In this document: positions 1,453-19,571 of the stretch, in pieces
Position numbering within the stretch: position 1 is the stretch's first letter
Layout: the number at the start of each line of letters is the position of its first letter
Assembly: GCA_023266095.1 (NCBI GenBank)
Contig: JAHFRV010000013.1
Coordinates: 1 to 52,042 of the forward strand
Direction of reading: 5' to 3'
Source: Gammaproteobacteria bacterium
Lineage (GTDB): Bacteria; Pseudomonadota; Gammaproteobacteria; DRLM01
DNA: 52,042 nucleotides
The notes under the pieces: model-generated
Databases searched by the model: none
What the model was told of the DNA's origin: nothing
Seen by the model: the letters and a program-made list of their open reading frames with translations, nothing else
Program-made: the position numbers and the translations under genes

Positions 1453-4400
1453 TCAGGAACGTGCTTCCACGATCCATAACAATAAGGCTTGGCGCAGTTG
1501 CGCGGCAATCTCCGGGTATTGTTCCGCTACATCTATCCGGCATTCCGGATCGTTGTACAGATTGAACAAACGCAGCAGATAATCGCTTTCCAAAGGTTGA
1601 TACACCAGTTTCCAATCACCATGGCGGATCATACGATCTTTGGCGAGCAGGATCGCTTCGCGATATTGCGGTTTGATCGCGAGTGTTCCACTGTTTCTGT
1701 TTGGTACCTCCATCAATTCCAATAGATCGGGGTAGCGCAGATGCTGATCCGGCAGGCCGGGGATGTCGGCGATCCACATGCCGGTCTCGTTGAAGGCGTC
1801 AAGCTTGGGACAGGCACCCTGCGGTTCAAAACAGGCGGCCAGTGAAATTCCATCCATCGCGGATGCCGGCGTGACGCCGACCAGTTCCAACAGGGTAGGG
1901 ACGAGATCTATGCTCCGCACCACCTGATCGACCTTGCCATGGCCGGCTTTACCAGGATCGCGGATTACCAACGGAATACGCGAACTGAAGTCACCCACAG
2001 CTGAATTGCCCTGGCCCCAAGTGTCGTGTTCAAAGAATTCCATGCCGTGGTCTGAATAAATCACCACGATGGTATTGTTCGTCAGACCGCACGCGTCGAG
2101 ATGGCGCAGCATTTTACCGACTTCATCATCGAACTCGGCCACGCAGCCATCGTACAAATTAATGATTTGATCGAGGTCGAACTCTTCTTTGGGCGCACCT
2201 TGACGGCGGATGATTTCGAAGGGATCGGTAAGCCTGGCCATTGCGAATTTAGATTCTCCCGCATAGGCCGGATCGGCGAAGCGCGTGTACCAAGGCCATT
2301 CGGCGGCAAACGGAGGATGGGTGGTCGAATAAAATATATTGAGAAAAAACGGCTGGGCGTCTTCAGCGAGGCGGGTCAACAAGTGCCGTGCACGCCGGCC
2401 CATCGGCTGGGTGAGCGGCACGCCACCGAGGTAATAAATTTCGGGGAGTAACAATCGTCCCAATCGGTTGTGAGCGAACAGCGACAAAAACAAACGTAAA
2501 TCTTTCGGTCCCTGCCGGATGAAATATTTCAAATTCCATTGGTCTTCCGGCAGATCAGTGTAATCAAAACCAAAGGAGAATTTGCCCATGTCGCCGCCGC
2601 ACCAGTCCGAGATGACCGCGCTGTGATAACCGCGGGCCTTGAGCAGGTGCGGTAAAGCCTCGACTTTCAGCTGGGTGGTTTCGTCCGAGTTAAAATTGTC
2701 ACGGATGCCATGGGTATGCGGCCAGGTGCCGGTCAGCAGCGAAATCAGGCTGGGCGCAGTGCGGGCGCAGGGCACATAACAGTTTGCAAACAGGATGCCT
2801 TGTCCGGCCAATTCGTCGATGTGGGGAGTGAGCGCGCGATGATAACCCAGCGCGCCCAACCGATCCGCACGCAGGGTGTCCGACCCTATCATCAGAATGT
2901 TCGGCGGGGCATCGGCTGCACGCGCCGCCGGACGGCGCGGAGGTCTGGCCTCTGGCAACCAGGCCGCACAGACGATGGTGCCTGCGATAAACAGGAATGT
3001 GGCCCATAACGTGATCAACTCGCCGGTCCGGCCCTGCGTGCTCAAGTGCCAGGAAGCGAGGATCAACAACAGGCCGGTGGCAGTTACCAACAACCACGAT
3101 AGGAAATGAATCCGGCCGGGCGTCATCCAATGCCAGAGGGTATAAAGCCGGCTCATGCGGTAATGCATCGAAGCCACTAACAAACCGGGATTGAAACGCA
3201 GCTTGCGCACGAATTGCAGAGTGGTTGCACCCACGATACCCAGCGCGGCCGCCAGCGTCGCCAAACCTGCCGACCATACGCCGTCCAGGCTGACGTTGAT
3301 CATGTAATACAACAATACGCCGATGCCGCCGGTGAAGAACATGATGGCGAAGGTCCAGGCGGTGAGACGGGCCAACGCGAACAGCGTGTAGCGACGGTAA
3401 TGGGTGAGCACCTCCTGCCGAATGCGTGGCCCGGTCTGCGAAAAATCCGACAGTGACTTGGCCAGCAGTAGCAAGGAAGCCAAGCCCGCTATCGCCATAG
3501 TTGGCAGTACCCCCGTCCAGTGCGCGCCGCCACTGACGAGCCAGGCCAGTGTGCCGCTGACAGTGATTATCAGCGCCAGGGAGCCGATGACCAATGCGCC
3601 ACGATCGGGAGGCAGATCCAATCCTTTTTTACGATAGTGACCGGGACTATCGGCGAAACTGAGATCCTCCGCCGATGCCACGCCCATATACGCTATTTGC
3701 CGCCGGATATAATCGGAATCGACAACACGGTCCCAGCGGCCGAGGATAAATCCATATAGATTCACGATTCGCACAAACTCCATTACCGCGATCACCCGCA
3801 GTCGCATACCCCAGCCTTTCGCCACGGTGGCAACCGTCGCTTGCGGTAATAGATGTTTGTGGATATGCCAGCCGAGCAAAGCGGACGCGGCAAGCAGTGC
3901 AGCGGGGAACCACGGACTGGTTAACAGTAACGCGGCGAGCAACCCATGGATACGCAGGTTGATCAAGTAACCGCTCATGCCTATGCCGACCCGCGCATTG
4001 CCACGCGAGAAATTGATGCGTTGCCGGGCGAGCGAGCGCCAGGTCTCGCGGGGTCGCCAGCGCACGATAGCGTCGCGGCAAAATACGAAATGACAGCCGA
4101 TCTGCCGCATCCGTATATTGAAAAGGGTATCTTCCGCGGCATACAGCCATTCCGGATAGCCGCCGGCCTGCTCCCAGGCCTGCTTGGTGAAGGCCACCGA
4201 GCGGCTGGAAGGGTAATAACGCGCGGTTTCGCTGTCGTCGCGGTTGGGTTGAAAGGTGGCGCGGATTACCGCATCTTCGAATGGCGTATGGGTTTCGAAG
4301 CGGAAATTTCCGGCCACTACATCGGCGGCGGGATTAGCGATGAAACACTCGGCAAGCTGCGCCAGCCAGTCAGGATTTACCCAACAACCCGCATCGGTAA

Positions 4401-4665
4401 TCGCCAGATGCGTACCGGTTGCGGCGGCGATACCCAGATTTCTGCCTTGGGCGATATTGCAGGGCCGGGAGATGACCCGGAGCAGGCCTCGCCTGGCGTA
4501 ATCTTCAAGTATCTCACGTGTGCCATCCGTGCTGGCGCCATCGACGATGATGATTTCATCCGCCCGGCGGGTTTGCTCGAGCAGTGACCCCAGGAATTTC
4601 TCAATGGTGTTTTTTTCGTTGCGAACGGTGGCAACGACGGAGATCCTGAGCGAGTCGTTCACCAT
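1453..4665 (-). CDS. GT2 glycosyltransferase / membrane / alkaline-phosphatase-superfamily fusion
   Basis: An unusual three-part protein of 1070 residues. Residues 1-240 are a GT2 domain (SVVATVRNE, VDGASTDGT, DAGC near 91). Residues 240-575 hold about eight hydrophobic segments. Residues 588-970 are a sulfatase-type (PF00884) domain with the metal-site patterns GSDTLRADRLG (Asp596) and YSDHG (Asp872, His873). The nucleophile motif reads TAPSLISLLTG with Thr636 where sulfatases carry the Cys or Ser that becomes formylglycine. By analogy with LtaS/EptA-like enzymes, this favours transfer of a phospho-substituent (phosphoglycerol or phosphoethanolamine) over sulfate hydrolysis. AAGG precedes the ATG at a good distance. 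I infer that one polypeptide adds a sugar and also decorates the glycan on the periplasmic side. Confidence 0.85.
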   Translation of the reverse strand: MVNDSLRISVVATVRNEKNTIEKFLGSLLEQTRRADEIIIVDGASTDGTREILEDYARRGLLRVISRPCNIAQGRNLGIAAATGTHLAITDAGCWVNPDWLAQLAECFIANPAADVVAGNFRFETHTPFEDAVIRATFQPNRDDSETARYYPSSRSVAFTKQAWEQAGGYPEWLYAAEDTLFNIRMRQIGCHFVFCRDAIVRWRPRETWRSLARQRINFSRGNARVGIGMSGYLINLRIHGLLAALLLTSPWFPAALLAASALLGWHIHKHLLPQATVATVAKGWGMRLRVIAVMEFVRIVNLYGFILGRWDRVVDSDYIRRQIAYMGVASAEDLSFADSPGHYRKKGLDLPPDRGALVIGSLALIITVSGTLAWLVSGGAHWTGVLPTMAIAGLASLLLLAKSLSDFSQTGPRIRQEVLTHYRRYTLFALARLTAWTFAIMFFTGGIGVLLYYMINVSLDGVWSAGLATLAAALGIVGATTLQFVRKLRFNPGLLVASMHYRMSRLYTLWHWMTPGRIHFLSWLLVTATGLLLILASWHLSTQGRTGELITLWATFLFIAGTIVCAAWLPEARPPRRPAARAADAPPNILMIGSDTLRADRLGALGYHRALTPHIDELAGQGILFANCYVPCARTAPSLISLLTGTWPHTHGIRDNFNSDETTQLKVEALPHLLKARGYHSAVISDWCGGDMGKFSFGFDYTDLPEDQWNLKYFIRQGPKDLRLFLSLFAHNRLGRLLLPEIYYLGGVPLTQPMGRRARHLLTRLAEDAQPFFLNIFYSTTHPPFAAEWPWYTRFADPAYAGESKFAMARLTDPFEIIRRQGAPKEEFDLDQIINLYDGCVAEFDDEVGKMLRHLDACGLTNNTIVVIYSDHGMEFFEHDTWGQGNSAVGDFSSRIPLVIRDPGKAGHGKVDQVVRSIDLVPTLLELVGVTPASAMDGISLAACFEPQGACPKLDAFNETGMWIADIPGLPDQHLRYPDLLELMEVPNRNSGTLAIKPQYREAILLAKDRMIRHGDWKLVYQPLESDYLLRLFNLYNDPECRIDVAEQYPEIAAQLRQALLLWIVEARS

Positions 4666-12855: not shown

Positions 12856-14112
12856 TTAAGCCTGAACCGTTGAGATAATCGGGATTACTGCTGCTTCGTC
12901 GTCATCTACTGCCCAATGTGCATCCAATGCGAAGAATCCATCGCGCACTGTTATCGGCACGTCACCCACCACCTGGAAATGCTTCAGGTTCTCGCCATAA
13001 AAGATGGTGCGCGCCGCTTGACCGGCAGTTGCGCCAAAGCGCAGTGAATAGACGCCTGGCAGAAGTGGCAAACCGGTGATTTTGCATAGCACTTCATGCT
13101 CACCCGGCGGAAGGTGACGGATATGGAGTTGCTCTTCACTGTTGTGGGTGGTCAGATATAGAAAGTCTGTCGTATGGAAGCCGAAGCCAAAGGTGACTTC
13201 GTCCAAACTCTGGAGTACCCGGATTTTGAAATTAACCACACAGTCGTGATCATACGAAAGGCGGTCAGCTCTTTGACCATTATGATCCAGCAAATGCAGT
13301 TCCAACAGCTCGATTTCGCCGCTGGTGTCGGTGCGGGTCTTGGCAAGGGCAGTACTGGCCTTGATCTTCTCGTCACTCTGTTCGTAGAAGCTGTCGCATA
13401 CCGCTTGTGGAGCCCCTTCTTTATTGACTCGTCCATGGTTAAGCATGATGACTCGGTTACACAGCCGCTGTATCTGACGGATGTTGTGGCTGACCAGCAA
13501 AACAGTCTTCCCCTGCCGCTTGATTAAGTCCTCCATCCGGTCAAAGCACTTCCGCTGAAACGCGAGATCCCCCACCGCCAGCACCTCGTCCACGATCAGA
13601 ATGTCCGATTCCACGCTGGTGGCGATGGAAAATCCCAAGCGCACCTGCATTCCCGATGAATAGCGTTTTATGGGTGTGTCGATGAACTCTTCCAGTTCGG
13701 CGAAGGCGACGATGTCGTCGAACTTACGTTTTATTTCTGCTTTGGAGATGCCGAGGATGGCAGCGTTTAGAAAGATATTTTCACGTCCGGTGAGATCACC
13801 TACCAACCCAGCGCCGACTTCGATCAATGGTGCTACTTTGCCATGTACTTTAACGTTTCCTCGGGTGGGTACGCTGATTTGCGCCAGCATTTTGAGTAGT
13901 GTGCTTTTACCCGCGCCGTTATGGCCGATGATGCCCAGCACTTCACCTTCTTCTACCTTGAAATCCACGTCGTCCAAGGCCTTGAATAAGGGGCGATTGG
14001 GCACGGACTCGCCGCGCAGGCGAGATAAGGTGTTGAACATGGATTGTTTGAAGCTGTGCAGGGCGCCGAGCCGGAATTCCTTGGTGACGTGGTTGACTTC
14101 GATGATGGCCAT
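12856..14112 (-). CDS. wzt: Polysaccharide ABC exporter ATPase Wzt, with C-terminal glycan-binding domain
   Basis: 418 residues. The ATPase domain carries Walker A GHNGAGKST (63-71), the signature YSSGMQ (151-156) and Walker B ILIVDE (171-176). Residues from about 270 to 405 form the extra C-terminal domain seen in Wzt proteins of the O8/O9a type, which binds the modified non-reducing end of the glycan and makes export depend on termination. Its length of about 420 residues, against about 250 for short capsule-type ATPases, supports that. It works with the Wzm permease encoded seven bases upstream to flip undecaprenyl-linked polysaccharide across the inner membrane. Confidence 0.93.
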   Translation of the reverse strand: MAIIEVNHVTKEFRLGALHSFKQSMFNTLSRLRGESVPNRPLFKALDDVDFKVEEGEVLGIIGHNGAGKSTLLKMLAQISVPTRGNVKVHGKVAPLIEVGAGLVGDLTGRENIFLNAAILGISKAEIKRKFDDIVAFAELEEFIDTPIKRYSSGMQVRLGFSIATSVESDILIVDEVLAVGDLAFQRKCFDRMEDLIKRQGKTVLLVSHNIRQIQRLCNRVIMLNHGRVNKEGAPQAVCDSFYEQSDEKIKASTALAKTRTDTSGEIELLELHLLDHNGQRADRLSYDHDCVVNFKIRVLQSLDEVTFGFGFHTTDFLYLTTHNSEEQLHIRHLPPGEHEVLCKITGLPLLPGVYSLRFGATAGQAARTIFYGENLKHFQVVGDVPITVRDGFFALDAHWAVDDDEAAVIPIISTVQA

Positions 14113-14119
14113 GGCGCGC

Positions 14120-14938
14120 TCAGATAACGTCGGCGAAATGCGATTCCGCCCGTTTGAAGATCAGATAACTGATAGGCAGCAGAACCAGGGTGAGTACCAT
14201 GCCCGGCCACATCGCTGACAAATCCGGCGGTAAACCACGCAATACCACGTGCTGAAACGCGTCGATGATACCCGCCAGCGGATTGAGCGTGTATACGGTA
14301 TACAGAATATTAGACCATTCCCCCGCGGCCTGATTGACCAATAATTTCTCCTTGACCAGGGTCAGCGGGTAGATCACCGGGGAAGCGTACATCAGCAGGG
14401 AAAAGGCCACCGGCAAGGCGGTCGCCACATCCCGGTAATAGACATTCATGGCGGCGCCCACCATGGCGATGCTCAGCACCACCAAGATCGTATAGCCGAT
14501 GATCAGGGGTACCCATAACAGATAAATCGTCGGGGCCATTTGATAATAAACCATCAAGCCAGCGAGTAGCAGGAAGTTTATGCCCAATTCCACCAGCTTG
14601 GTGACGACGCTGGTGAGCGGGAAGATTTCGCGGGGGAAGTAAATCTTGCGGATGAGGCCGGCATTGCCCACCACGCTGTTGACCCCCTCGGAGGCGGCTT
14701 CCTGAAAGAATATCCACGGCATGAGCGCGGCGAAGGTGAGAATGGGATAGGGTATCTCGCCACTGTCAATGCCAATAAAGCTCTTCATCAAAGTAAAGAT
14801 AAGCACGAGCATCAGCGGTTTTATCACCGCCCAGGCGATGCCGAGGTAGGCTTGCTTGTAGCGCACGGTGATATTTTTCCATGCGAGCGCCATCATCAAT
14901 TCTCGGTAGGCGTAGAGATTGGTTGCTGTCTTGATCAT
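14120..14938 (-). CDS. wzm: Polysaccharide ABC exporter permease Wzm
   Basis: 272 residues with six predicted membrane helices and the ABC-2 layout. The N-terminal amphipathic WKNITVRYKQAYLGIAWAV precedes the first helix. FPREIFPL near residue 105 and YTLNPLAGIIDAFQ near 215 are typical of O-antigen and teichoic-acid exporter permeases. It forms the channel with Wzt. Together they show that this polysaccharide uses the ABC-transporter-dependent route and not Wzx/Wzy: no flippase or polymerase gene is seen in the window. A gap of about 235 bp with no recognisable gene separates it from the VanZ-heparinase gene upstream. Confidence 0.93.
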   Translation of the reverse strand: MIKTATNLYAYRELMMALAWKNITVRYKQAYLGIAWAVIKPLMLVLIFTLMKSFIGIDSGEIPYPILTFAALMPWIFFQEAASEGVNSVVGNAGLIRKIYFPREIFPLTSVVTKLVELGINFLLLAGLMVYYQMAPTIYLLWVPLIIGYTILVVLSIAMVGAAMNVYYRDVATALPVAFSLLMYASPVIYPLTLVKEKLLVNQAAGEWSNILYTVYTLNPLAGIIDAFQHVVLRGLPPDLSAMWPGMVLTLVLLPISYLIFKRAESHFADVI

Positions 14939-15173: not shown

Positions 15174-18100
15174 CTAATTGGCAGGATTAAGGTCATAGCT
15201 CTGTTGCTCGCTCGCGGTAATGACTTCCACCCGGGCGTCCCCTTGCGCAGCCCCGAACCGCCACCGGGTGGTACGGTGCGGCCCGACGATTTCCACGCCG
15301 ACGCCATCGGTCATTTTGAGCTGATGTACTTGGTGAGTGGGTGAATTGGCGCCGAGAGTAGGAAGCAGCACCACCAAAAATTCATCCGTTTCATGAGGTG
15401 CATCGGGCAGGATCTCTACCCGCCACGCTCCCGCCTCCGCCAACGGTTTCTTTTGGAGGGCGTCCGCTACGCCTTCGTCATAGTTTTTGTCCTCGACGAA
15501 GTAGTTGAATCCGGGACCGCCCATTAATTGGATATAGCGACTGGCGGGGAGCAGAACGTGGGCCTCCATGCGGCCGCCGGCATGGCCGGCTTGCGGAGCG
15601 GAGGGGGTGCGGACGATGAAGCCTTGGTTGGTGATCTCCGGTTTTTGCAGAGTATGCAGCAACCAGCGTTTACGGAAGTCCGCGTCGGTGGCGGTCACCC
15701 GGTCGTAGATGACGATGACATCGTCGATGTTGTCGTAGCCGAATAGGCGCCGAAATTCCTCCACCCGGCGGGTGCGGTGGGAAAAGCTGCCTTTACCGGA
15801 TAACTGATTGGTGTAGGCGGGGGTGAGGTCGGCGCTGGCTACGGTGAGGCCGTTTTCTATCAGTGTTTTTTCGATGCGGCCGGTGTGGTAGATGTCGCGC
15901 TTCTGTTGCCATTCGCTAAGGTCCAGCGGTGCGGCTTCCACGCCCCAGCCGGAGCCGATCCGGCGTTGGCCGCCGTCATTGGCGATGTCCCTCGGCGGTT
16001 TTTTGTCTCGGGCGGGGGTGGGTACGATGTCGTCGGGATCGGTGACGGTGAGGGTGTTGTGGGCAATCGTCTGGTAGGTGTAGTTCATGTGATGGTCGGC
16101 GCCATAGCCGGGGCCATAGAGACCACTGTCTATGGCCAGCGCCCCGCCTTTGTATACGGTGAAGGCCCCTTGGTCGAGATGGCTGTGCGACCAATAGTTG
16201 TCGCCGGCCTTGAAGGTGATATAGGTGGCATCCGGGCTCCAGTCGCTGCGCGCCACGAGAAGACCGAGACCATCGAAGTGGGCGGTGAGGGGTAGATTTT
16301 CGATGGCATGGGGGTTCTCCAAGCTGGCGTCGGTGAGCGGCCCCCAGGGCCAGCTGGTGGGTACGGGTGCCTTGTGTGGCGCTGGCAGGTTATAGGCGGC
16401 GGCATGCCGAAATTCCATAGCCAGGGCCAGTCGATCAGGTATCAATTTGTCGAAGAAGCCGGCGTCGCCCAGTCGCATATGCGTGCCGTCCGGACGGGTG
16501 CGATACACCAGAAAATCCAAAAAGCCGCGGATGCCCGGCTCGGTTTTGAAGTAGTCTTCGCCGGTGGCCTTGCGCCACATGGCGGGTAGTTCGTAAATCG
16601 CCTGGCCGATGCCGATGCCCACGTATTCGCCGCCTTCATGCCAGCCGCCGTTTTTGCCCATGATCTGTCGCCATACCGGCAGCACGCGATTCTTCCAGTA
16701 ATCGGCGGTGAAGGCCATCACCGGGTCGCCGCGCGGGTCATCGCCGTAGAGGGCGATCGCGCAGGCCATCAGCGCTTGCAAGGGGCTGTTGTAGAGATAC
16801 ACGTTGTAGGGTGACAAGCGTTCCTCGCGGATATAACGGATCTGGTATTCGCAACCCTCGGCGAGTTTGGCGCGTAACTGTGTCCGTTGCGTTTCATTCC
16901 ATTGGTCGTAGAGCCAGTCGTAGGCCACCGCCAAGGGTTTGGTTTGCTCGTGCCCGCGCCAGGTGAATTGCAGGGCCAATAATTTGGACAGCAATGCCGT
17001 CAAGTCTTGGCTGCCGGGTTCGATGTAGGCTTGCAGCAGACTGTGCTGGAGTCGTCCCTGGCCGGCGAATAAGCGTTGCTGGGCGAGATAGTCCGGGTTT
17101 TCTTTGTGTAAGCGCGCAATGTCCGCCTGACTGGGAGCGGGCAGGCGCGGGTGGCTGTGGCGGAAGTTGGGCAGCGGCAATAAGCGCAGATCTTCAGGCG
17201 CGGGCAGTTGCGTGACGGCAGGTTGCCGGCCCTCGGCGGGCGGTTCGTCGCGGAGTTCGTCGGTGGGTATCAAGCGCCAGCCCGCGAGCAGGCCGAAGGT
17301 AATGAAGACGAGGAATAGCGGGACGGTCTTTATCGAGTGATGCTTGCCGTGGTGCGGTGCAGAGATAGGACTATCGATTGCCGGCGCGACGGCTTCTCCA
17401 TAACGCGGGAGTAGCCAGGGTAGCATCCATCCCAGGACGGCGAGACAGGCATCGGTGAGATCGGGGTAGCGGCCCGGTATATAGGTCTGCAGCCACTCCA
17501 GGCCTAGCGTGTAGGCGAACACCAATACTCCTCCGATCAAGAAGACATTGCGGGGATGGAGGAACAGAGTGAGGTAGGCCAAGGCCGCGAATGGCCAGAG
17601 GTTGCTCGTGATATCCGCTATGCCATTGAGATTCTCCATGTGTTCGCTGAAGGGAATCCAATTCATGGCCAGCAGTGGCGCGTTGGGATCGGGCCCCGCA
17701 CGCAGTTGTTCGACGGCGTAGGCTGACAACACCAGCAAGCCGGCGAGTAATGCCTTGCCTTTTCTGGGCAGGTAGAGCAGCAGGGAGAATAACAAAAGTG
17801 CGACGGCGACCCCGGCCACCGCTTCGAACGACAGCTGGCGGCTGACCACGGGGATCTTGAGCACCAGCACCAGCAGAACAAAAGCAGCGTAGTGTCTCAG
17901 CACGGCTTGACCGGGTTTGAATACGGTGGCTGCCAGCAAGCCCAGTCCCGCCGCGCCGAGGCCATAGCCGAGCGCCTGGAGGGGGTTGAACTCCGCGGTG
18001 TGGTGAACCAGGACTTGGAGCAGAGGGCGTATACCGTCGACGAGGTTGCCCCTATCGAAGGAGGGTACCAACGGTGCCAGTTGCGAGAATGCCCACAGCC

Positions 18101-18728
18101 CCAGGACAGTGAGGCCGATGTTGGGCAAAGCACCGGCCAAGAACCAACGATGGCGCCAACGGTGGAGGTGTCCGCCGCTATAGCTATGTGCCTGGATGAA
18201 TTTGGCGAACAAGGCGCCAAGCAGGGTTCCCGTGACATTCAGCGCCGTATCGAGCAGCGACGGCACCCGCTGTGGTAGATAGCTTTGCAGGTATTCCAGA
18301 CCGAAACTCAAACCGCCGCCAAGCAAGGTGGCGAGGGCGATGGTGGACCAGCCACCGTAGCGCGGCCGCCAGGACAACATCAATAGCAAACCCAAAGGCA
18401 GATACACCACCAGATTGGTAATCACATCGCTACGGGAAACTTGGGTCGGCCAGATGATGGGAAACAGAGCGTGGAGACCGCCCCTCATAGTGTCCCAGCC
18501 GCTGAGCGGGAATAGCGCTCCATAAATCAGCAGCAACAGATAAGCCGTGGCCAGCTTCCAATATGCCGCACCCCGCGCATCCAGCGACGGATGCGATGCG
18601 GGGTGTTGCTCTGTCACGGTTTCGCTCACGCTTGGATAACCTCTAAGGAACGGCTGGGCTATAGGGGGAGTCCCGGTGATGGTGATCTTGGACCGAGCAA
18701 TATTGCGGTATCGGCTTATCAGGGCCAT
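15174..18728 (-). CDS. VanZ-VanZ-heparinase II/III fusion membrane protein
   Basis: A protein of up to 1184 residues. A multi-helix membrane part contains two VanZ-like segments: DVITNLVVYLPLG with LEYLQSYLPQRVPSLLD (about 100-165) and FAYTLGLEWLQTYIPGRYPDLTD (roughly 400-430). From about residue 520 there is a soluble heparinase II/III-type polysaccharide lyase: a helical toroid, then YWSHSHLDQGAFTVYKGG and IDSGLYGPGY, the conserved His/Tyr-rich core of PF07940. The lyase half probably faces the periplasm and trims or edits the glycan exported by Wzm/Wzt. The first gene of the operon. The ATG at 18728 has no clear SD and is 43 bp from the divergent protease start; a GTG at 18629 preceded by AGAGG may be the true start. 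Confidence 0.85.
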   Translation of the reverse strand: MALISRYRNIARSKITITGTPPIAQPFLRGYPSVSETVTEQHPASHPSLDARGAAYWKLATAYLLLLIYGALFPLSGWDTMRGGLHALFPIIWPTQVSRSDVITNLVVYLPLGLLLMLSWRPRYGGWSTIALATLLGGGLSFGLEYLQSYLPQRVPSLLDTALNVTGTLLGALFAKFIQAHSYSGGHLHRWRHRWFLAGALPNIGLTVLGLWAFSQLAPLVPSFDRGNLVDGIRPLLQVLVHHTAEFNPLQALGYGLGAAGLGLLAATVFKPGQAVLRHYAAFVLLVLVLKIPVVSRQLSFEAVAGVAVALLLFSLLLYLPRKGKALLAGLLVLSAYAVEQLRAGPDPNAPLLAMNWIPFSEHMENLNGIADITSNLWPFAALAYLTLFLHPRNVFLIGGVLVFAYTLGLEWLQTYIPGRYPDLTDACLAVLGWMLPWLLPRYGEAVAPAIDSPISAPHHGKHHSIKTVPLFLVFITFGLLAGWRLIPTDELRDEPPAEGRQPAVTQLPAPEDLRLLPLPNFRHSHPRLPAPSQADIARLHKENPDYLAQQRLFAGQGRLQHSLLQAYIEPGSQDLTALLSKLLALQFTWRGHEQTKPLAVAYDWLYDQWNETQRTQLRAKLAEGCEYQIRYIREERLSPYNVYLYNSPLQALMACAIALYGDDPRGDPVMAFTADYWKNRVLPVWRQIMGKNGGWHEGGEYVGIGIGQAIYELPAMWRKATGEDYFKTEPGIRGFLDFLVYRTRPDGTHMRLGDAGFFDKLIPDRLALAMEFRHAAAYNLPAPHKAPVPTSWPWGPLTDASLENPHAIENLPLTAHFDGLGLLVARSDWSPDATYITFKAGDNYWSHSHLDQGAFTVYKGGALAIDSGLYGPGYGADHHMNYTYQTIAHNTLTVTDPDDIVPTPARDKKPPRDIANDGGQRRIGSGWGVEAAPLDLSEWQQKRDIYHTGRIEKTLIENGLTVASADLTPAYTNQLSGKGSFSHRTRRVEEFRRLFGYDNIDDVIVIYDRVTATDADFRKRWLLHTLQKPEITNQGFIVRTPSAPQAGHAGGRMEAHVLLPASRYIQLMGGPGFNYFVEDKNYDEGVADALQKKPLAEAGAWRVEILPDAPHETDEFLVVLLPTLGANSPTHQVHQLKMTDGVGVEIVGPHRTTRWRFGAAQGDARVEVITASEQQSYDLNPAN

Positions 18729-18770
18729 TATTCATGATTCATATTGAATTGTATCAGAGGTATTTTTGTG

Positions 18771-19571
18771 ATGGTTGATGATTGCACACTATGCAATCCC
18801 GCGCCGCGGCGTCGGGCTTGGCGGGTGACGATGATGTTATGTATCTTGAGCGTCGCCGGCCAGGCGCCGGCTGATACCTTGCCTGACACCGTGGCGCGTC
18901 TCAAGGCCAGTGTGGTGGGCGTGGGCACCTTGGAGCGCACCCGCCGGCCGCCGGCGCAGTTGCTCGGCACGGGTTTCGTGGTGGGGGACGGCCGCCATGT
19001 GTTGAGCAACGCCCATGTGGTGCCCGACAAGCTGGATAAAGATAAACAGGAAAGCCTGGTGGTGTTCGTCGGCGGCGGCCCGGCGCCGGAGGTGCGGTTG
19101 GCCACTAAAGTGGCGGAGGATCTCGATCACGATTTAGTGTTGTTGAAGATCTCCGAGGCGCCGCTACCGGCGCTACAGCTGGGCGATTCCGCCGCGGTGC
19201 GTGAAGGCGAGGTCTATGCCTTCACCGGTTTCCCCCTCGGCGCGGTGCTCGGGCTGTATCCCGTCACCCACCGCGGTATGGTCGCGGCGATCACTCCCAT
19301 GGCGGTCCCCCCTGCTAACGCCGGGCAGCTGACCCCGGATTTGCTGCGGCGCCTGCAAGCCAATTACGCCGTATTTCAGTTGGACGCCACAGCGTATCCC
19401 GGCAACTCCGGCAGCCCCCTCTACGACATGGCTACCGGTACGGTGATGGGTATAGTGAATAAAATCTTCGTGCAGGAAAGCAAAGAGAACGTGCTGCATA
19501 AGCCCAGCGGGATTTCGTATGCGATGCCGATCAATTACGCGAAGGAGTTATTAACCAAGGCCGGTTTGTAG
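18771..19571 (+). CDS. Exported trypsin-like serine protease (no PDZ domain)
   Basis: About 266 residues with a signal peptide (hydrophobic MMLCILSVAG near residue 20, likely cleavage after APA). The catalytic triad is visible: His in LSNAHVV, Asp in DLDHDLVLLK and Ser in YPGNSGSPLYD. The spacing is that of the HtrA/trypsin-2 clan, but the protein ends soon after the protease domain, so there is no PDZ module. AGAGG stands ten bases before the ATG at 18771; an upstream TTG in frame is rejected. It is divergent from the polysaccharide operon and probably works in the periplasm. Substrate unknown. Confidence 0.85.
   Translation: MVDDCTLCNPAPRRRAWRVTMMLCILSVAGQAPADTLPDTVARLKASVVGVGTLERTRRPPAQLLGTGFVVGDGRHVLSNAHVVPDKLDKDKQESLVVFVGGGPAPEVRLATKVAEDLDHDLVLLKISEAPLPALQLGDSAAVREGEVYAFTGFPLGAVLGLYPVTHRGMVAAITPMAVPPANAGQLTPDLLRRLQANYAVFQLDATAYPGNSGSPLYDMATGTVMGIVNKIFVQESKENVLHKPSGISYAMPINYAKELLTKAGL

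Follow-up and report, generated by a model that had tools for sequence, protein, structure and literature searches.

A membrane-anchored fusion of VanZ modules with a heparinase II-fold domain at the edge of a variable polysaccharide locus

Architecture, topology and distribution of the VanZ–lyase fusion

The window, a 52,042-nt stretch of contig JAHFRV010000013.1 (GCA_023266095.1) from a gammaproteobacterium of the DRLM01 lineage, holds a minus-strand gene in which VanZ modules are joined to a heparinase II-fold domain. Downstream of it lie genes for Wzm, Wzt, a methyltransferase, GT2 and GT4 glycosyltransferases, a polysaccharide deacetylase, an FkbM methyltransferase and a GT2/PF00884 protein, and this neighborhood bears out the polysaccharide context proposed in the initial annotation. 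The features discussed here are as follows.

1453..4665, minus strand: GT2 with a membrane alkaline-phosphatase-superfamily domain (PF00884); Thr replaces the formylglycine Cys; strongest co-occurring partner of the fusion
12856..14112, minus strand: Wzt-like ATPase with Wzt_C domain (profile match)
14120..14938, minus strand: Wzm-like ABC-2 permease, 235 bp downstream of the lyase gene
15174..18728, minus strand: VanZ, four-helix block, VanZ, anchor helix and heparinase II-fold lyase, 1184 aa; possible true start GTG 18629
15177..17195, minus strand: heparinase II-fold domain, residues 512-1184; Y702, H848, H850, D867, Y871 and H890 conserved; His202 site occupied by N642-V643-Y644
17274..17327, minus strand: 13th membrane helix, residues 468-485, predicted to put the lyase outside
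17403..17768, minus strand: second detectable VanZ copy, residues 321-442; ExxQ, R420, D423 and D426 kept, H2 and H4 Asn lost
17769..18146, minus strand: middle four-helix block, residues 195-320, in the position of the relatives' VanZ copy 2; sequence not detectably VanZ
18195..18590, minus strand: VanZ copy 1, residues 47-178, TM1-4; N105, E145xxQ148, R154, D160 and N164 invariant in 15/15 fusions
18744..19571, plus strand: HtrA-like trypsin-fold protease, a conserved divergent neighbor

The VanZ–lyase gene is a single, open and intact frame, within which Pfam recognized VanZ in two stretches (1.1e-18), DUF4962 at residues 599-755 (6.5e-12) and Hepar_II_III_C at 816-1044 (6.3e-11), and NCBIfam matched HepB over residues 600-1147 (181 bits). 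VanZ modules and a complete heparinase-type lyase thus sit in one polypeptide, as first annotated, and this is the only PF07940 protein of the host genome. Since 15 bp separate the annotated ATG from the divergent HtrA-like frame, the true start may be internal, for example at GTG 18629 (residue 34, behind AGAGG).

The earlier count of two VanZ modules holds for the detectable copies, but a third four-helix block (195-320) sits between them. Profile comparison gave no VanZ match for this block in the window type, and its assignment to VanZ on sequence grounds was rejected; in Thauera-type relatives, all three four-helix blocks match VanZ by the same comparison. From position and helix count, we infer three tandem VanZ modules, one of them degenerate. 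In the Lipocone study, the VanZ-1 site comprises an Asn in H2, ExxQ in H3 and D/N in H4 (PMC12419801). Copy 1 has the four-helix core and carries this site as N105, E145, Q148, D160 and N164 in 15/15 fusions. A fold search with the VanZ module model alone returned no significant match in the PDB, and the solved Lipocone protein PSS1 ranked with the chance matches, at E 4-5.

The AlphaFold model of the whole protein (mean pLDDT 76.7) contains 13 long membrane helices with the lyase at the C-terminus, in line with the membrane-tethered enzyme envisaged at the outset. Across 15 fusion homologs, Lys and Arg account for 305 of 1757 residues in predicted inside loops versus 139 of 2071 outside, and acidic residues show the opposite trend. 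With an odd number of helices, the N-terminus inside and this charge pattern, the lyase domain is predicted to be periplasmic; a cytoplasmic lyase, which the initial annotation had set against its own proposal, is rejected on helix parity and charge distribution. In this predicted topology, copy-1 residues N105, E145, Q148, R154, D160 and N164 fall at or just past the periplasmic ends of the helices.

A scan of species genomes yielded 30 close relatives (L002-L031), including members of Thauera, Aromatoleum, Thiobacillus, Competibacteraceae and Methylothermaceae; VanZ and lyase share one frame in 20 of these 30 loci, all in beta- and gammaproteobacterial records. In an even sample of the class, 12 of 369 genomes, from ten genera, carry the lyase family, and every sampled copy is fused, in an unbroken frame of 1157 aa or more, except for a contig-truncated copy in G003. 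A frameshift or assembly error, raised earlier as a possible source of the fusion, is therefore ruled out, given the intact frame and the recurrence of the fusion in many genomes. Four split lyases (L011, L014-L016) have an adjoining VanZ gene in divergent orientation, so the pair stays together; the L011 lyase bears a single N-terminal membrane helix of its own, matching the position of the anchor helix. L028 is situated at a contig end. Because the split forms fall among the fused ones in the lyase tree, a quick tree with several weak forks, splitting is probably secondary. Some carriers hold further copies: G340 has two tandem VanZ–lyase genes with differing VanZ types (L059:9773-17085, plus strand), and L011 carries, next to its split VanZ and lyase genes, a further multi-copy VanZ protein (L011:3-1913, plus strand), with similar paired VanZ genes in G026, G173 and G280.

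The heparinase-fold domain: lyase or epimerase

The C-terminal domain matches heparinase II (HepII; 2FUQ) at 4e-45, and its predicted model matches the same structure at 1e-21 in Foldseek. HepII was also the best structural match of the predicted model in VIA-align (Z 33.0, rmsd 3.7 over 612 residues, ~22% identity), followed by the alginate lyase Atu3025 and then human dermatan sulfate epimerase 1 (DS-epi1; 6HZN, Z 27.0). The alpha-toroid plus beta-sheet fold extends across the whole domain in the model, and the Pfam matches are above cut-off. The His-rich core noted previously is real (SHSH848-850LD). Residues Y702, H848, H850, D867, Y871 and H890 align with HepII Tyr257, His406, His408, Asp425, Tyr429 and His451; Y702 is conserved in 25/26 aligned lyases, H848, H850, D867 and H890 in 26/26, and Y871 in 25-26/26. 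The HepII set includes the catalytic Tyr257 and His406 together with the metal residues.

The position of HepII His202 differs. No His occupies it in any of the 26 aligned lyases; around the site, Y641, N642, Y646 and N647 are invariant, and the window protein reads N642-V643-Y644. The PL21 HepB equivalog (NF045571) scores 181 bits against a curated threshold of 600 bits. By both its low score and its lack of His202, the lyase is, at the sequence level, a relative of HepB and not HepB itself.

The fold shared with DS-epi1 raises the alternative that the domain is a polymer-level uronate C5-epimerase, which modifies the chain during export and does not cut it. DUF4962 is common to dermatan sulfate epimerases and Gram-negative lyases (PMC8006597), and the domain lies in a biosynthetic and not a catabolic locus, both of which suit an epimerase. 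Of the DS-epimerase triad His205/Tyr261/Tyr473, however, the alignment retains the Tyr pair but not the His, and His205, the counterpart of HepII His202, is essential in DS-epi1 (PMC8006597). Every sequence has the invariant N642 instead, and Asn is the charge stabilizer in GlcA-acting PL33 lyases, with Tyr as acid/base toward GlcA in PL12, PL21 and PL33 (PMC11848413). By sequence, HepII (4.7e-60) is also a much nearer match to the domain than DS-epi1 (0.1). We consider the epimerase improbable and favor a lyase, possibly GlcA-directed, since the His that DS-epi1 needs is absent and PL33 lyases use Asn. Such a lyase would act on a uronate polymer by beta-elimination.

Genomic context and partner swapping of the VanZ module

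The lyase stop and the Wzm start are 235 bp apart, with an insignificant promoter-like match in the gap, and lyase and Wzm/Wzt likely share an operon. The earlier description of the lyase gene as heading this operon comes down to shared orientation and proximity to Wzm. The order ArgD–ArgF–ABC–cytochrome–HtrA–lyase recurs in G002 and G245, which belong to a different family, and partly in G340, and the glycan genes past the lyase differ between loci. The lyase gene lies at the conserved edge (ArgD–ArgF–cytochrome–HtrA) of a variable polysaccharide locus.

Many lyase neighborhoods hold glycosyltransferases, a deacetylase and an exporter or a flippase; some carriers (L007, L009 and L021) have no recognized glycan genes within ~10 kb. 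Each of the 12 carriers has a UDP-glucose dehydrogenase-type gene, although its family is near universal. The PF00884 protein is present in 9/12 carriers versus 12/357 other genomes (p = 2e-10, relatedness ignored). In all homologs compared, Thr replaces its formylglycine Cys (RTAPS), which makes a classical sulfatase unlikely from the sequence. A sulfated polymer, suggested by the PF00884, sulfotransferase and ATP sulfurylase–APS kinase genes, was rejected on this Thr, on a sulfotransferase enrichment that was not significant (p = 0.06) and on the limited occurrence of the sulfurylase–kinase gene, which adjoins the lyase in four loci only (L004, L007, L008 and L017). In those four loci, this bifunctional gene and a DHH-like gene adjoin the VanZ–lyase gene. 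In six others (L027, L030, L057, L061, L062 and L066), an HprK-related kinase and an NTP_transf_5 protein lie beside the lyase, some with a small secreted-looking protein.

The initial annotation tied the fusion specifically to Wzm/Wzt, as a dedicated accessory that would trim or release the glycan on its way out of the ABC exporter. Counting with the window's own Wzm subfamily gave an association (4/12 carriers versus 7/357 others, p = 2e-4, relatedness ignored), and Wzm is adjacent to the lyase in the window and in L018 and within ~7 kb in L010, G092 and G340. Nevertheless, 8/12 carriers are without this subfamily, several hold a MOP flippase in its place, and in G245 Wzm is ~35 kb from the lyase. 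The association thus stands, but the specific tie does not: the Wzm/Wzt-specific reading is too narrow, and we regard a dedicated accessory as unlikely.

With the VanZ module as query, 38 of the 369 sampled genomes gave a match. Nine of these genomes (G095, G330, G252, G299, G316, G111, G128, G226 and G324; loci L088:5354-8689, minus strand, L119-L123 and L125-L127) encode proteins of 1096-1170 aa in which a triple VanZ is joined to a Wzy_C/O-antigen-ligase-like domain. Their C-terminal halves match Wzy_C at E values from 3.5e-10 to 5.5e-3, with 3/9 above the Pfam cut-off, and have many invariant residues in common. The lyase is present in 0/9 of these genomes, although little overlap is to be expected by chance anyway. 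Several of the VanZ–Wzy_C fusions adjoin HtrA, GalE and HprK-related genes, as the lyase fusions do. Stand-alone VanZ modules also exist; for example, G004, from the window's own family, has one with the same HtrA and cytochrome genes as neighbors. The VanZ-1 site residues of copy 1 are invariant across all partner types, and the fusion to a ligase-like protein hints at what VanZ does. Tentatively, the triple VanZ might be an interchangeable cassette that grips the lipid-carrier end of exported glycans, with the C-terminal partner, for cleavage or for ligase/polymerase-type transfer, setting the fate of the chain. If true, this would give VanZ-1 a concrete role in a terminal step of undecaprenyl-linked polysaccharides.

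Proposed role and comparison with known systems

We propose, with belief and doubt about evenly balanced, that the fusion is a periplasm-facing membrane enzyme whose substrate is the acidic, lipid-linked polysaccharide that the cell itself makes; the lyase would clear or trim, and VanZ would handle the carrier end. In this scheme, Wzm/Wzt or a flippase would deliver the undecaprenyl-phosphate-linked glycan to the periplasmic side. The VanZ (Lipocone) module would span the inner membrane, its conserved polar residues toward the periplasmic side, and would bind and perhaps cleave or transfer the undecaprenyl-phosphate-linked end of the glycan, and the tethered heparinase-fold domain would cut the uronate-containing chain by beta-elimination. 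Stalled or surplus polymer might thereby be cleared or trimmed, much as AlgL is reported to clear periplasmic alginate (PMC8829089). We infer the enzymatic activity, the own-polymer substrate, the lipid-carrier chemistry and the clearance purpose. The lipid-linked-glycan reading of the module draws on the invariance of the VanZ-1/Lipocone residues at predicted periplasmic helix ends. Independently, the Lipocone study predicts that VanZ-1 targets polyprenol-linked sugar head groups within pathways for exopolysaccharide (PMC12419801). The Wzy_C/ligase partner, another periplasmic step on lipid-linked glycan, counts toward the own-polymer reading. So do the recurrence of the fusion, the predicted periplasmic side of the lyase, its conserved catalytic residues, the adjacency of VanZ and lyase where they are split, and the glycan genes in many neighborhoods. 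The carriers with no recognized glycan genes nearby speak against it, as does the VanZ model's failure to match the PDB significantly.

VanZ may otherwise be a mere scaffold or anchor, the lyase being an ordinary membrane-bound scavenger of foreign uronates. That would sit well with the partial loss of the predicted site from the middle block and from the second detectable VanZ copy, and with some lyase loci being outside polysaccharide clusters. Yet no sequence has lost a predicted site residue from copy 1, no genes for uptake or uronate catabolism were recognized beside the lyase, tethering to the inner membrane fits an internal polymer, and the module swaps to a ligase-like partner; we hold the scavenger to be rather unlikely and retain the own-polymer enzyme.

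VanZ is widespread, and we found no proven reaction for it. The VanZ–lyase fusions, with their mutable catalytic residues, and the VanZ–ligase fusions offer a direct test of VanZ on lipid-linked glycans, and the former may provide membrane-tethered polysaccharide lyases of new specificity. The words "heparinase" and "lyase" are absent from the main text of the Lipocone paper (PMC12419801), and, at the level of titles and abstracts, the literature on VanZ with heparinase yielded nothing relevant.

Among known systems, HepII (HepB, PL21, Pedobacter heparinus, 2FUQ) resembles the window lyase in fold and in equivalents of its catalytic Tyr, His and metal residues; unlike HepII, the window lyase is without His202, is tethered to a 13-helix VanZ module and lies in a biosynthetic locus. 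Human DS-epi1 shares the fold and the catalytic Tyr/His frame, but its required His205 is absent here. Copy 1 is like the VanZ-1 family of the Lipocone superfamily in its H2 Asn, H3 ExxQ, H4 D...N and exopolysaccharide context (PMC12419801), but here the module occurs in up to three tandem copies and is fused to a lyase. O-antigen ligase/Wzy_C (PF04932), a membrane glycosyl-transfer type domain absent from the window protein, is the alternative C-terminal partner of the triple VanZ. The periplasmic alginate lyase AlgL is soluble and of a different fold and family from the heparinase-fold lyase. Although the two are not homologous, AlgL is encoded with the synthesis genes of its own polymer and works in the periplasm, and the likeness lies in the role proposed here.
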